Positions 6,601 through 12,143 of a stretch of DNA of 64,000 nt are shown piece after piece. Positions within the stretch are counted from its first letter, which is position 1. Each line of letters opens with the position of its first letter. Below the pieces are notes generated by a model, which was given only the letters and a program-made list of their open reading frames with translations, was not told where the DNA came from and made no database searches. The stretch comes from Treponema sp. J25 (GTDB taxonomy: Bacteria; Spirochaetota; Spirochaetia; Treponematales; Breznakiellaceae): positions 1-64,000 of the forward strand of contig NZ_PTQW01000006.1 of assembly GCF_004343725.1 (NCBI RefSeq), read 5' to 3'. The position numbers and the translations under genes are program-made.

Positions 6601-9165
6601 TTAACTCCGTTCTACCGGCTGTGAGGGAATATGGGGAATGGCGGTGATAACCGGTGGAGTCCGGGTCTTTTTTATTTTAAGGACCACCTGGCCTTCCCGG
6701 ACATCGGCGACAAAAACAGAGCCCCGCGGAGGATCCTCTTCCAGAATAAGAAGGGCCAGGGGATCCTCGAGCAACTTTTGCACCGCCCGTCGCATGGGCC
6801 GAGCCCCATACTTTGGATCCCAGCCCTGCTCTACCAGCACCTCCCGGGCGGCGGGCCGTACCTGAACCGAATACCCCTGCTCTGCAAGGCGTTCATTAAG
6901 GGCCTTTACTTCCAGGTCCAGAATAGCCAGCACCTGTTCCTTACTTAAGGGATGGAACACCACAATGTCGTCTACCCGATTAATAAACTCAGGATTAAAG
7001 AGCCGCTTTAACTCCGAAAGGGCGGCGGACCGAATTTCTTCCACCGACATGATACCGCTCCCCGAATTAAAACCGAGCCGGGCATCCCGGGAAATTTCCC
7101 GGGCCCCTGCGTTGCTCGTCATGATGATTACCGTGTTCCGGAAATTCACCGTGTGCCCCAGGTTATCCTTTAGTTCCCCTTCTTCCAACACTTGAAGCAG
7201 CAGATTGAACACATCATGATGGGCCTTTTCGATTTCATCGAAGAGGATAACCCGGTAGGGGTTACGACGGATCTGTTCAGTGAGGGTTCCCCCCTCTTCA
7301 TAGCCGATATACCCCGGCGGCGCCCCCACAAGGCGGGATACGTTGTGTTTTTCCATAAAGTCGGACATATCGATTCTGATAAGGGCTTCTTCGCTCCCAA
7401 AAAGATACTCCGCCAGGCGCTTCGCCAGGAGCGTCTTTCCCACCCCCGTGGGGCCCAGGAAAATAAAGGACCCCTGGGGACGCTTAATAGAAGAAACCCC
7501 TGCCCTGCTGCGACGGATGGCGCTGGCTATCTGACGAATTGCCTCGTCCTGGCCAATCACAGCTCGATGCAGCTCTTCTTCGATATGGAGGAGCTTCCGG
7601 GAGACACTTTCTTCCAGTCGAGTAAGGGGAATACCGGTCATCTCGGAAACCACCGCCCGCACGTCCGCCTCCGTAACTTCCGGCCGGCGTTCATTACTGA
7701 GTCGCTCCCAGTTCTGTCGGACCGATTCAAGGTGATACCGGAGGGAACGGACCTGGTCTCGTATAATCGCTGCCCGCTCATAATCCTGGCGGGCCACCAG
7801 AGCCATTTTTTCTGCGGTAAGGCGTTTAATTTCCGCTTCAATCTCCTCTATTTCGGGGGGACGAACCTCATTTTCGAGCTTCTTCTTAGCCCCCGCTTCA
7901 TCCAGCACATCAATTGCCTTGTCCGGCATATACCGACCCGTAAGGTAGCGCTGGGCCAGGGTAACCGCCGCTTTCAGGGCCCCCTCGGTATACACCACCC
8001 GGTGATGGGCCTCATAGCGCTGCCGAATTCCTTCCAGGATCTGCAGGGTCTCCTCCGGGCTCGGTTCATCGACCAGTACCATCTGAAAACGCCGTTCCAA
8101 GGCGGCATCCTTTTCAAAGTGTTTTCGGTACTCCGCCAGCGTGGTGGCCCCAATACACTGGATTTCCCCCCGGGAAAGGGCGGGCTTCAGCATATTGGAG
8201 GCATCGATGGTTCCCTCGGCACCGCCCGCTCCAATGACGGTATGAATTTCATCAATAAAGAGAATAATGTTTCCCGCCTGGCTAATTTCCTTCATGATTC
8301 GCTTAAGGCGCTCTTCGAATTCCCCCCGATATTTGGTCCCCGCCACCACCGACGCCAGATCGAGGGTAATGAGCCGCTTATCCATGAGTATTTCCGGCAC
8401 ATTCTCCGAGGCAATAAGCTGGGCAAGCCCTTCTACCACTGCCGTCTTCCCCACCCCCGGTTCTCCTACCAGGATGGGATTGTTCTTTGTCCTCCGGGCA
8501 AGGATACGCACCACCCGCTGCACTTCTTTTTTTCTCCCGATAACAGGATCCAGGTTTCCTGTTCGAGCAAGGGCGGTAAGATCCCGAGAAAATTCATCGA
8601 GCACGGGGGTCCGCACCGCCTTTTGTGTTGGGTTTGCCGCGGTCGGCCCTGGGCCACGAATTTCTCCCGCCGAAGAGGGGCCGTTCGCATCGGATCGTCC
8701 CCCTTCGTGTTGTCCGTCATCATGCTGGTGGGCCAAAAGATTTTTCAACACCGAACGGAGTATGTCCAAGGAAATTGCATGGGAATGGAGGTATCTACTC
8801 GTAGGGGTGTCTTCCTCCCGGGCTGCAGCCAAAAGGATGTGTTCCGTTCCCACATAGTCATGACCAAAGGTACGGGCCTCCTCTGCGGCGGTTTCCAGAA
8901 GGACTCTGGCCCTCCGGGAAGGGGGGATGTCTCCAAACACATAGGCCTGGCTTTTCTGGGGAACTTCCCGTTCAAGGAAGTGACGGAAGTCCTGAAGATC
9001 TATATTGAGCTCTTCCAGGGCCTTACATGCCACACCGGTTCCCTCTTTGAGCAGGGCGATCATGATATGTTCTGGCAATAGTTGATCCCCATTAAAACGA
9101 CGAGCCTCATCTTGAGCTAACACAGAAAGTATTTTCTGAGCCCGCTGGGTTAAACCTTTAAACAC
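6601..9165 (-). CDS. clpC: ATP-dependent Clp protease ATP-binding subunit ClpC
   Basis: ClpC is the AAA+ unfoldase that feeds ClpP. The 854-residue protein has a double Clp_N repeat (1-140), a long Gly/Asn/Pro linker (about 145-188), AAA domain 1 with GEPGVGKT (234-241), a UVR-type middle coiled coil, AAA domain 2 with GPTGVGKT near 570, and a ClpB-D2-small domain. Glu32 and Glu108 lie in paired [17 protein letters not shown] repeats, matching the phospho-arginine docking glutamates of Bacillus ClpC. The start is GTG at 9165 with GGAGGA upstream. mcsA and an mcsB-like gene precede it, as in Firmicutes, but ctsR is absent. Confidence 0.95.
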
Positions 9166-9193: not shown

Positions 9194-10300
9194 CTACGGG
9201 AGAGCCCTTCTTACAAGAAGGGCCCGCACCTTTTTCGGGTTTTCTTTTTTACCTGCCTCCGCAAGTAAATCCCTTATTTCTAAATTAATCATTTGAGGGC
9301 CCAGCGTAAACCAGAGGGTATCGAGGGCCCCATAGGAGGGGATATTCTTTTCTTGAGGAAGAATGCCATAGGCAAGACCCATGCGCACCTGGGCAAGCAT
9401 AAAACGGGCCTCCTCTTCATCAAGGAGAAGGGCAGCACGAAGCACCGCTAGGGCCTTAGCCACCCCATCCTGTAGTTCTTCCATTTCCTCTTCCAGATGA
9501 TAGTGTCGGGCCTTCCGCTCGGTAAGCACCACTTTTTCAAGGTGTTCCTCAAAAAAGGCGAGGGCCTCTTCTTCACTCATCCCGGCGGGGACAGAAAAGC
9601 GCAAATTCACCAGGGGAAGATGATCCTCCGTGTTCTCTGAACTGCCCTGTTCTCCCCTTCCCCAGACAGTATCCAGAAAGACTAATTCAATACCCTTGCT
9701 TACCAGGTTCCCTGAGATCCGTTCAAACAGTTCCTTTGCAAGGATAGCGGGGATAAAAACCAGGGCTTCCAGCGTCATAGCCGCGCCACAGAGGCTAACA
9801 TCGGAAGTTAAAAAACCGAATTCCTCATGGCAGGCCCACTGAAGCGTTCTATCAAGGGCTTCATCGATCTGAACAAGGTCTTTCCACAACGAACGGAAGG
9901 AAACCCCACCCTGGGTGAACACGACCTGCAAGTGATCTTCCCCGCCAAGGTAATACAAATTTCCTGCGGGCCGCCATATACAGGCCCCCTCATCTTCGGG
10001 GACCGAAAAAGGGAAAAGAGGATAGAGTTCCCGTACGGCGGGGGAAGAAAGAAGAGTAAGCCCCCCTGCATCTTTCCCGGGGAAAAGGTTATGAGTATCC
10101 GATTCTACAGGATGAAAAGAGGTATCTACCTGAGCAATGGCGGCCTTGAGCTTTTCTCGCAGGGGTTTTCGCTCCACCTCCGGAAGCCGGGCAGGGAACG
10201 GAAAGCCCTCCAGGTTTCTCCGGATACTTATACGGCTGTACAGGACCACATCCTGAGGAGCACTCGAAGAAAACCAGGGCAGCACCAGCGAAGGCTCCAT
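9194..10300 (-). CDS. McsB-like ATP:guanido phosphotransferase family protein with degenerate active site
   Basis: McsB is the protein arginine kinase that marks substrates for ClpC. This 368-residue protein has the right length, position and several family landmarks: SRISIRRN (22-29, cf. SRIRLARN) and GFLTS (162-166). The catalytic NEEDH motif reads GGEDH (119-123). The conserved TSCPTN-GTGLRAS segment reads TSDVSL-GAAMTLE, so Asp167 replaces the active-site Cys and the phosphate-binding Arg is lost. The RGLYGE segment is also not preserved. It lies 4 bases after mcsA and 28 before clpC. I infer a pseudokinase or divergent kinase acting as a McsA/ClpC adaptor; that it is catalytically dead is not proven. 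Confidence 0.75.
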   Translation of the reverse strand: MEPSLVLPWFSSSAPQDVVLYSRISIRRNLEGFPFPARLPEVERKPLREKLKAAIAQVDTSFHPVESDTHNLFPGKDAGGLTLLSSPAVRELYPLFPFSVPEDEGACIWRPAGNLYYLGGEDHLQVVFTQGGVSFRSLWKDLVQIDEALDRTLQWACHEEFGFLTSDVSLCGAAMTLEALVFIPAILAKELFERISGNLVSKGIELVFLDTVWGRGEQGSSENTEDHLPLVNLRFSVPAGMSEEEALAFFEEHLEKVVLTERKARHYHLEEEMEELQDGVAKALAVLRAALLLDEEEARFMLAQVRMGLAYGILPQEKNIPSYGALDTLWFTLGPQMINLEIRDLLAEAGKKENPKKVRALLVRRALP

Positions 10301-10304
10301 AGGG

Positions 10305-10808
10305 TTATGCTCCTTGTTCTAACTGTTGAATTGCGTCCCGATACTGGGCCGCTTCCTCATATCGCTCTTTTTCAAGGGCCTCTTGCAACAGTTTCCGTAG
10401 CCGTTCTAGCTCACTCTGCCGATTCTGCTGATTGCGGAGAGAAACTGAAAGACGGCCCTTGTATCCCCCTTCTTTCCCATAAGAGATAATTTCTTTCTTT
10501 AAAAGGTTTTTAAATATGGCATAGCAGCGGGCACATCCGGCCCGCTGGGATTTTTGAAGATCCCGCCAGGTGGTACCACAAAAGGGACAGAATTCGTTTC
10601 CCGTTCCCTTTTTTCCTCGACTGTTTCGAACCGTTTGGGGAAAATTCTTGAGAAGTTCCATAAGGGCCTTCCCGACATCCTCTGAAAGATGTACAAGGCC
10701 ATGACTTTTTGCACATTCTTCACACAAATGAAGTTCTGTTGGGCCCTCGCTCCCAACCTGATGGATAAACACAACAGCCTGACGCTCTCTACATATATCA
10801 CATTTCAT
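10305..10808 (-). CDS. mcsA: McsA-like zinc-finger protein with UVR domain
   Basis: McsA activates McsB and helps deliver it to ClpC in Firmicutes. The 167-residue protein has N-terminal zinc-ligand pairs CDIC (3-6) and CEEC, a second set FCPFC and CARCY, and a C-terminal UvrB/UvrC (UVR) helix pair (about 130-165, with ALEKERYEEAAQYRDAI). Length and layout match McsA. It is first of the mcsA-mcsB-clpC set and follows the lolE-like gene by 33 bases. In Bacillus, CtsR represses this operon; no ctsR is present here, so any heat regulation must use another factor. Confidence 0.88.
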   Translation of the reverse strand: MKCDICRERQAVVFIHQVGSEGPTELHLCEECAKSHGLVHLSEDVGKALMELLKNFPQTVRNSRGKKGTGNEFCPFCGTTWRDLQKSQRAGCARCYAIFKNLLKKEIISYGKEGGYKGRLSVSLRNQQNRQSELERLRKLLQEALEKERYEEAAQYRDAIQQLEQGA

Positions 10809-10841: not shown

Positions 10842-12143
10842 TCATTGTTTTTGCAAAATTGCTACCGGCGAAATGGCCCCTGCCCTTCGGGCCGGCCCCC
10901 AGCCGGCAAGGGTACCAATAAGCACCGCCGCCCCGTATATTCCCAGGACCATGGGCCAGCGGATTATTACCGGAATTTCCACCAGGTAATAGGATGGATT
11001 AAGAAGGTGGAGGGGTTCTCCATGAAAAAACCCTCTGACTGTATTAATAACAATCTCCACCCCTTGAAGAATCTCATTTATAGTATACCCAATTCCAAGG
11101 CCAATGGCGATACCCACCAGAGCCCCCATCATCACGGTGATCAGGGCCGATCGAATAAAAATGCCCTCAATATCTTTTGGGCTTGCACCGGAGGCTTTAA
11201 GAATTGCGATTTCCCGGTTTTTATCTATCACGAGCATGGTGGTGGCGGCCGTCACATGGAAAGAGGCCACGATCATGATGAGGGTCATAATAAAAAGAAG
11301 TAATTGCTGGGTCGCCTTAAAAGAGGCATACTGGGTGGCAAGCAACTCTTTCCATGAGTAGACCCCATAGCCACTTCCTAAATATTCCTGCAGGTCCTGG
11401 ACCAGGACTTCTAGATTCCCATAGGGGTTTTCGGTCTTTATCATATAAAATGTCCGGGAATTTTCGGGAGTCACAATGCGAGACTCAAGGGAAAGGGGAA
11501 CAAAGCACCAGAGTTCATCAAGTTCCCGATATCCCGCCTGGACGATGCCCCGAACCGTAAGGCTCGTCACCCGGGGGATAAGGCTCCCATCAGCGCCGGT
11601 CCGCAGGGTCATCAGCCGAACGGTGCTCCCCACCGTGGCGCCAATGGTCCCTGCGATGGTACTTCCTAACAGACACTCCCCCGCTCCTTTAAAAGAAAGT
11701 TCCCCCGCCACAAGGGTAAGGTACCGTTTACTTCCCTGATTTTCCAGGAAGGGTTCACTAACGGCCCGAAGCTGGGCGCCACTTTTTCCCTTTGGCCCCA
11801 CCAGAATCCCGAGGCTTTGGACTTCTCGCCAGTACCCAGTGATAAGGGGTTCCGCAGACGATCGCTCCGCCCCATTTTTCTGAGAGAGAAAGGCCTTTAT
11901 GGGGTCATTTTCCCCTTCCTCAGCCCTTATATAGGGATAAATCTGTACATGCCCCGTTCCCAGTTCCAGGAAACGATCGGTAATACCCTGAATCATTCCA
12001 TCCGACACGATGAGGGTTACTATAATGGGAATCATACTGATGGCAATGCTGATTCCCGCACCCCGCAGGTAACGGCCCCCATCCCGTTCTTTTCCCCAGA
12101 GGTAGCGGATGGCACAATACCAACGAAACCCCTCTCTCGTCAT
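10842..12143 (-). CDS. lolE: FtsX-family ABC permease, LolE/LolC-like (second of a pair)
   Basis: This is a subunit of the inner-membrane complex that releases outer-membrane lipoproteins. The 433-residue protein has one N-terminal membrane segment (about 28-48, after the RYLRGAGISIAIS region), a large periplasmic domain, and three C-terminal segments in FtsX topology (about 275-300, 330-350, 395-420). Its ATG overlaps the lolD stop by 4 bases, so translation is probably coupled. Two paralogous permeases flank one ATPase, the LolC-LolD-LolE plan. The names LolC and LolE are assigned by order and could be swapped; a MacB-type exporter is less likely given the fusion-free ATPase. Confidence 0.78.
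   Translation of the reverse strand: MTREGFRWYCAIRYLWGKERDGGRYLRGAGISIAISMIPIIVTLIVSDGMIQGITDRFLELGTGHVQIYPYIRAEEGENDPIKAFLSQKNGAERSSAEPLITGYWREVQSLGILVGPKGKSGAQLRAVSEPFLENQGSKRYLTLVAGELSFKGAGECLLGSTIAGTIGATVGSTVRLMTLRTGADGSLIPRVTSLTVRGIVQAGYRELDELWCFVPLSLESRIVTPENSRTFYMIKTENPYGNLEVLVQDLQEYLGSGYGVYSWKELLATQYASFKATQQLLLFIMTLIMIVASFHVTAATTMLVIDKNREIAILKASGASPKDIEGIFIRSALITVMMGALVGIAIGLGIGYTINEILQGVEIVINTVRGFFHGEPLHLLNPSYYLVEIPVIIRWPMVLGIYGAAVLIGTLAGWGPARRAGAISPVAILQKQ

Follow-up and report, generated by a model that had tools for sequence, protein, structure and literature searches.

The McsB homologue encoded in the window (the whole stretch of DNA analysed, 64,000 nucleotides from Treponema sp. 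J25) belongs structurally to the McsB lineage, yet it does not qualify as a protein arginine kinase by the features that define such an enzyme, and the aligned McsBs of the class Spirochaetia display a comparable erosion of the active site. The reading we favour, and consider reasonably probable, is that McsB of this class is an inherited pseudokinase whose complex with McsA would act on ClpC purely through contact, serving as an adaptor or activator. McsB, its fold and the operon are already known. A natural loss of catalysis across a whole class, in which the gene set nevertheless persists, did not turn up in the open literature that was searched, which misses most subscription journals; no paper on a degenerate spirochaete McsB was found there.

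The mcsB homologue of the window and its active site

The genes and motifs concerned are located in the window as follows.

6601..9165, minus strand: clpC, 854 aa; GTG start after GGAGG; Glu32 and Glu108 in the N-domain; UVR motif in the middle domain
9194..10300, minus strand: mcsB homologue, 368 aa, with an eroded guanido-kinase active site (pseudo-McsB); assigned by PF00217, the NCBIfam McsB models and the sequence and fold match to PDB 6fh1
10305..10808, minus strand: mcsA homologue, 167 aa; two CxxC..CxxC zinc fingers and a UVR motif (NCBIfam McsA, E=2e-24; UVR, E=7e-7)
10842..12143, minus strand: FtsX-type permease, upstream of mcsA
9926..9946, minus strand: GGEDHLQ (residues 119-125) in place of NEEDHIR; Glu121 kept, N119, E120 and R125 lost (sequence, alignment)
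9794..9817, minus strand: GFLTSDVS (residues 162-169); GFL of the McsA-contact loop kept, catalytic Cys167 changed to Asp (sequence, alignment)
9203..9229, minus strand: C-terminal VRALLVRRA (residues 358-366); Arg359, the second Arg of RDxxRA (R341 in B. subtilis), kept (alignment)

The mcsA, mcsB and clpC genes are adjacent and co-oriented, with 4 bases between mcsA and mcsB and 28 bases between mcsB and clpC, and the mcsB open reading frame contains no internal stops. The homology of all three is confirmed, and the gene set stands as the original prediction had it. The McsB-like identity that it proposed also holds, with sequence and structure searches in agreement: the protein matches PF00217 (Pfam, E=8e-13), the NCBIfam McsB models (E down to 5e-31) and, in a PDB sequence search, 6fh1 (E=9e-15); its AlphaFold model, built with 93 sequences, has a pLDDT of 86.7 and a pTM of 0.88; and the whole chain matches Geobacillus and Bacillus McsB in Foldseek with TM 0.76-0.78 and E about 1e-21 (6fh1 and 6fh3, TM 0.73-0.78). 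The guanido-kinase catalytic domain and the McsB dimerisation domain are both present by PF00217, the McsB models and AlphaFold/Foldseek. Against the NCBIfam McsB equivalog, the protein scores 108 bits, compared with a cut-off of 385. No second guanido kinase was detected, and the window mcsB is the sole PF00217 gene found in the genome.

Residue numbers are those of B. subtilis McsB, fixed on R337/D338 (PMC8370763) and C167; the numbering of the window protein coincides with them over residues 119-184. By alignment, the changes in the window copy are R31S, N119G, E120G, R125Q, C167D, R176T, E212S, R337P and D338K. The phosphate-binding arginines (R29, R31, R125, R176 and R207) and Glu212 are therefore hit at four positions, and the phospho-arginine receptor pair R337/D338 reads Pro-Lys just before the C-terminal VRALLVRRA. 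The residues that survive are Glu121, R29, R341 and perhaps R207, whose status is uncertain because the Arg of GRGEQG aligns at 207 only across a gapped loop. In total, three of the eight catalytic residues are retained, and the copy is among the more eroded ones. The surviving Glu121, the second Glu of NEEDH, corresponds to Glu225, the catalytic residue in the arginine kinase of Limulus.

Most of the motif changes first described from the DNA stand: GGEDH, TSDVSL with Asp167 and the replacement of the GTGLRAS Arg by Thr are all found, SR....RN and GFLTS are kept, and the RGxYGE motif is largely gone in the alignment. What does not stand is the loss of the catalytic Glu; the structure prediction and Bacillus McsB alignment that had been proposed as a check bear out the loss of Cys and R176 within a McsB fold, but Glu121 is still there. 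Likewise, the SRxxxxRN motif remains as described, but the phosphate-binding R31 inside it is Ser (SRIRLARN to SRISIRRN).

In B. subtilis McsB, R-to-K replacements at 29, 31, 34, 125, 176, 207 and 337 abolish activity, and the C167S protein is described as kinase-inactive (PMC7235348). The absence of Cys167 and of further essential or invariant residues, in the window copy and class-wide, strongly supports the prediction that arginine-kinase activity has been lost in this species, in line with the original expectation.

A misalignment, with the catalytic residues lying elsewhere in the sequence, is hardly credible. Geobacillus McsB, the best structural match in the PDB, shares just about 21% identity with the window protein, which leaves room for such an error; but the alignment is anchored at G162, G172, H123, R34 and R341, and intermediate sequences carry NEEDHLR and GTGMRAS-like motifs (L138-L140). 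The window protein contains no unmatched NEED or CPTN motif. We rejected this explanation on the intermediate sequences and the fold match.

Extent of the erosion in Spirochaetia

The survey of spirochaete McsBs confirms the loss but shows that it is not peculiar to the window copy. Of 148 sampled genomes of the class, 90 have a PF00217 match; across the order, a search with the window protein was positive in 141 of 294 genomes. In an alignment of 117 distinct McsBs from 32 families and 68 genera of Spirochaetia, Cys167 is present in none (0/117) and Glu121 in 25; R176 is kept at a frequency of 0.23 and E212 at 0.11; and 105 of the 117 retain four or fewer of the eight catalytic residues. By comparison, all eight are intact in 79 of 79 McsBs from other phyla (51 from Bacillota, 12 from Planctomycetota, and others). 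These 79 were chosen by a NEEDH-like DNA pattern, so their counts for Glu121 and Arg125 are biased, while Cys167, R176, R207 and E212 lie outside the pattern. Cys167 is kept in 31 of 72 McsBs from the other Spirochaetota clades. Judged from these alignments, the erosion is class-wide and far beyond chance.

The same conclusion emerges from the 56 positions with a conservation of 97% or more in other phyla, among which the eight active-site positions are kept less well in the class than the other 48 (mean 0.32 vs 0.58, Mann-Whitney p=0.014). The least kept mostly belong to the active site (C167, Q127, T169, P168 and E212) or to the phospho-arginine receptor (R337); the most kept are G162, G172, E251, R341, R34, P184, G132, H123 and R255. 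When other phyla are used to root a tree of ClpC, the class forms one clade (76/76 rows, support 100), and about nine Cys losses are required in the phylum, one of which covers the class and some neighbours; the deep joins of this tree are provisional because it was built with FastTree.

Residual catalysis through an altered chemistry, using Glu121 with Asp167 or a Cys at position 171 and perhaps acting on another substrate, appears improbable. It would draw on the Glu121 kept in the window copy, on the acidic residue at position 167 in 55 of the 117 class McsBs, on the Cys at 171 in 32 of them and on the few members that keep five or six of the eight residues. However, the phosphate-binding R31, R125 and R176 are broken in the window copy, Glu121 is lost in 92 of the 117, among them every one of the seven further McsBs from the window's family, and no constant residue replaces Cys167 across the class. 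The label "protein arginine kinase" on mcsB of this class is thus probably wrong.

Selection, McsA and the link to ClpC

In close-relative pairs with pseudo-McsB, the dN/dS of mcsB is 0.04-0.29, which indicates purifying selection; a value for the window copy itself is not obtainable, because dS to its nearest relative is saturated. It is very improbable that mcsB is a decaying relic on its way out, although clpC stands without mcsA and mcsB in many genomes of the family, and the window copy is down to three of eight residues. The open frame, the operon spacing and the high-confidence fold argue against it, and a pseudogene was rejected on the dN/dS far below 1 in related pseudo-McsBs and on non-catalytic residues that are invariant over the 32 families.

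The features that are kept point towards McsA. In the S. aureus complex, the McsB loop just before the Cys contacts McsA (PMC12467219), and this loop is the best kept McsB region in the class, with G162 present in 117 of 117. Mutations of R255, R272 and R341 in B. subtilis leave autophosphorylation in place and remove the effect of McsA (PMC7235348); in the class, these residues are retained at 0.94, 0.89 and 0.99, respectively. The window copy still has R255 and R341 but carries Lys in place of R272 and no longer has R86 or R281; its McsA-coupling set is thus more eroded than is usual in the class. On the McsA side, every class member keeps the C-terminal zinc ligands at positions 74/77/92/95 (100%). 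In addition, mcsA accompanies mcsB at all 141 loci examined, with a clpC ORF within reach at 139, and the phylum genomes that have mcsB without an adjoining clpC contain a ClpC match elsewhere in 14 of 14 checked. Purifying selection, the retained coupling residues and the fact that mcsA and mcsB are kept or lost as a pair support a non-catalytic role with McsA. A kinase-free adaptor between McsA and ClpC had been proposed from the DNA; its McsA side is supported by these three lines of evidence, whereas its ClpC side is an inference, though a good one.

ClpC is present, with mcsA and mcsB undetected, in many genomes of the window's family, and at L233-L249 the pair is jointly missing with clpC still in place; the pair thus comes and goes together and depends on ClpC, not the reverse. 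At L243-L245, the gene directly preceding clpC encodes an FtsX-type permease, as does the gene upstream of mcsA in the window. L241:3-1505 (plus strand) is an ORF of 501 aa or more, immediately preceding clpC, that combines McsA with an eroded McsB; the Pfam search of that genome gave no PF00217 match. Two sets of candidate remnants were rejected: the one in a sister genus (L232) has no mcsA, mcsB or clpC ORF there, and the ORFs of about 200 aa that precede clpC in mcsB-less relatives are unrelated to either McsA or McsB.

That McsA and pseudo-McsB are retained for some purpose other than substrate delivery to ClpC is a less likely but tangible alternative; the pair might, for example, sense redox state or stress through the zinc fingers and keep ClpC inactive, aid ClpC assembly or act on another partner. 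The invariant McsA zinc ligands are in its favour, as are the findings in B. subtilis that McsB is inhibited by ClpC and that McsA is a thiol sensor (PMC5506225), together with a family (f51, L183-L188) in which eroded mcsA-mcsB pairs lie apart from clpC, with ClpC elsewhere in those genomes. The tight linkage to clpC and the co-presence of ClpC in every genome checked argue against it.

The glutamates of ClpC do not show that phospho-arginine is read. Glu32 and Glu108 are present in the window ClpC, as was first noted, but the step from there to phospho-arginine docking falls. The ClpCs beside class McsBs keep Glu32 in 97% and Glu108 in 95% of cases; those examined from spirochaete genomes without a PF00217 match keep both in 17 of 17, and 16 of these genomes (not 17, because of the fusion at L241) have no detectable mcsA or mcsB. 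Since these 16 retain both residues, the pair is uninformative about phospho-arginine reading, and we rejected it as a sign thereof; ClpC Glu32/Glu106 is likewise unusable as a marker of phospho-arginine signalling. In fact, S. aureus ClpC E32A/E106A is active without phospho-arginine, and the pockets take part in the resting state (PMC12583610), a function separate from any reading of phospho-arginine.

The remaining circuit and a putative adaptor role

The other parts of the known circuit were sought by Pfam searches of the draft genome, which is 99.88% complete. No PF05848 match to CtsR was found in the genome and no ctsR lies in the operon; the MecA family was not found in the genome; and two ClpPs are present. 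Three low-molecular-weight phosphatase matches carry the P-loops CVHNSCRS, CTGNSCRS and CVHNSARS, with Ser at position 5 in all, so that none of the three (0/3) has the Thr at this position that directs YwlE to phospho-arginine, and the two that were scanned both score best as arsenate reductases. With an eroded McsB, no YwlE-type phosphatase and no CtsR, the writer, the eraser and the classical target of phospho-arginine are therefore missing or disabled, within the reach of the searches.

Evidence for McsB acting beyond its kinase activity comes from B. subtilis, in which the half-life of MgsR is 12.3 min with C167S McsB and 17.7 min without McsB; the authors read the C167S result as an adaptor function separable from kinase activity (PMC7235348). 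The ClpC N-domain is reportedly bound by McsA/McsB (PMC12583610). In B. subtilis, however, McsB is reported to need its kinase activity to stimulate ClpC or act as an adaptor (PMC5506225), and a kinase-free adaptor would therefore be a change of mechanism.

Based on the above, the pseudokinase adaptor may be pictured as follows. Pseudo-McsB retains the fold of McsB together with its dimerisation domain and the loop that contacts McsA, and the two proteins most likely still associate. This complex most likely acts on ClpC/ClpP via protein contact only, with no phospho-arginine written, and may serve as a phosphorylation-independent adaptor, activator or regulator of ClpC in a role comparable to that of MecA. 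Key parts of the catalytic machinery are lost and the gene still lies beside clpC, which suggests that the protein is probably a docking partner and not an enzyme. Extended to the whole class, this would mean that McsA-McsB-ClpC runs without phospho-arginine, with a pseudokinase adaptor, about nine Cys losses in the phylum and ClpC pockets that serve resting-state control; we hold this wider proposal to be slightly favoured. The adaptor and kinase roles of McsB are hard to separate in Bacillus (PMC5506225), and spirochaetes would offer a natural separation with the partnership kept.

Compared with the McsB arginine kinases of B. subtilis, G. stearothermophilus and S. aureus (6tv6, 6fh1 and 8gqd), the window copy shares the full-length fold, the dimerisation domain, the McsA-contact loop, the RA of the C-terminal RDxxRA and the mcsA-mcsB-clpC order, but lacks the catalytic Cys, R31, R125, R176, Glu212 and R337/D338, and no ctsR was detected in its operon or genome. 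The MecA adaptor would share the proposed role, the activation of ClpC by contact with the substrate unmodified, whereas its sequence is unrelated to that of the window McsB. In B. subtilis C167S, the same catalytic position is lost and adaptor function is proposed to persist (PMC7235348); that protein is a laboratory mutant, whereas the window type occurs naturally and has become fixed throughout a bacterial class.

Intact-type McsBs of other Spirochaetota clades (e.g. L189, L194, L196, L201 and L205) belong to the same phylum, have the mcsA-mcsB-clpC set and a related ClpC and, unlike the window copy, keep the NEEDH-type Glu and the Cys, which suggests that they are probably active. R337, which is essential in B. 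subtilis McsB (PMC7235348), is lost in 22 of 22 such Spirochaetota proteins with intact Cys and Glu (from L181, L189, L194, L196, L205, L206 and L225). Another arrangement occurs at L179 and L210-L219 (families f47 and f71), where one ORF, usually beside clpC, encodes a zinc finger of the McsA type together with the catalytic core of McsB; in these fusions, the Glu, Cys and Arg residues are mostly intact and the McsB dimerisation domain and the RDxxRA tail are absent, the reverse of the erosion in the window McsB.
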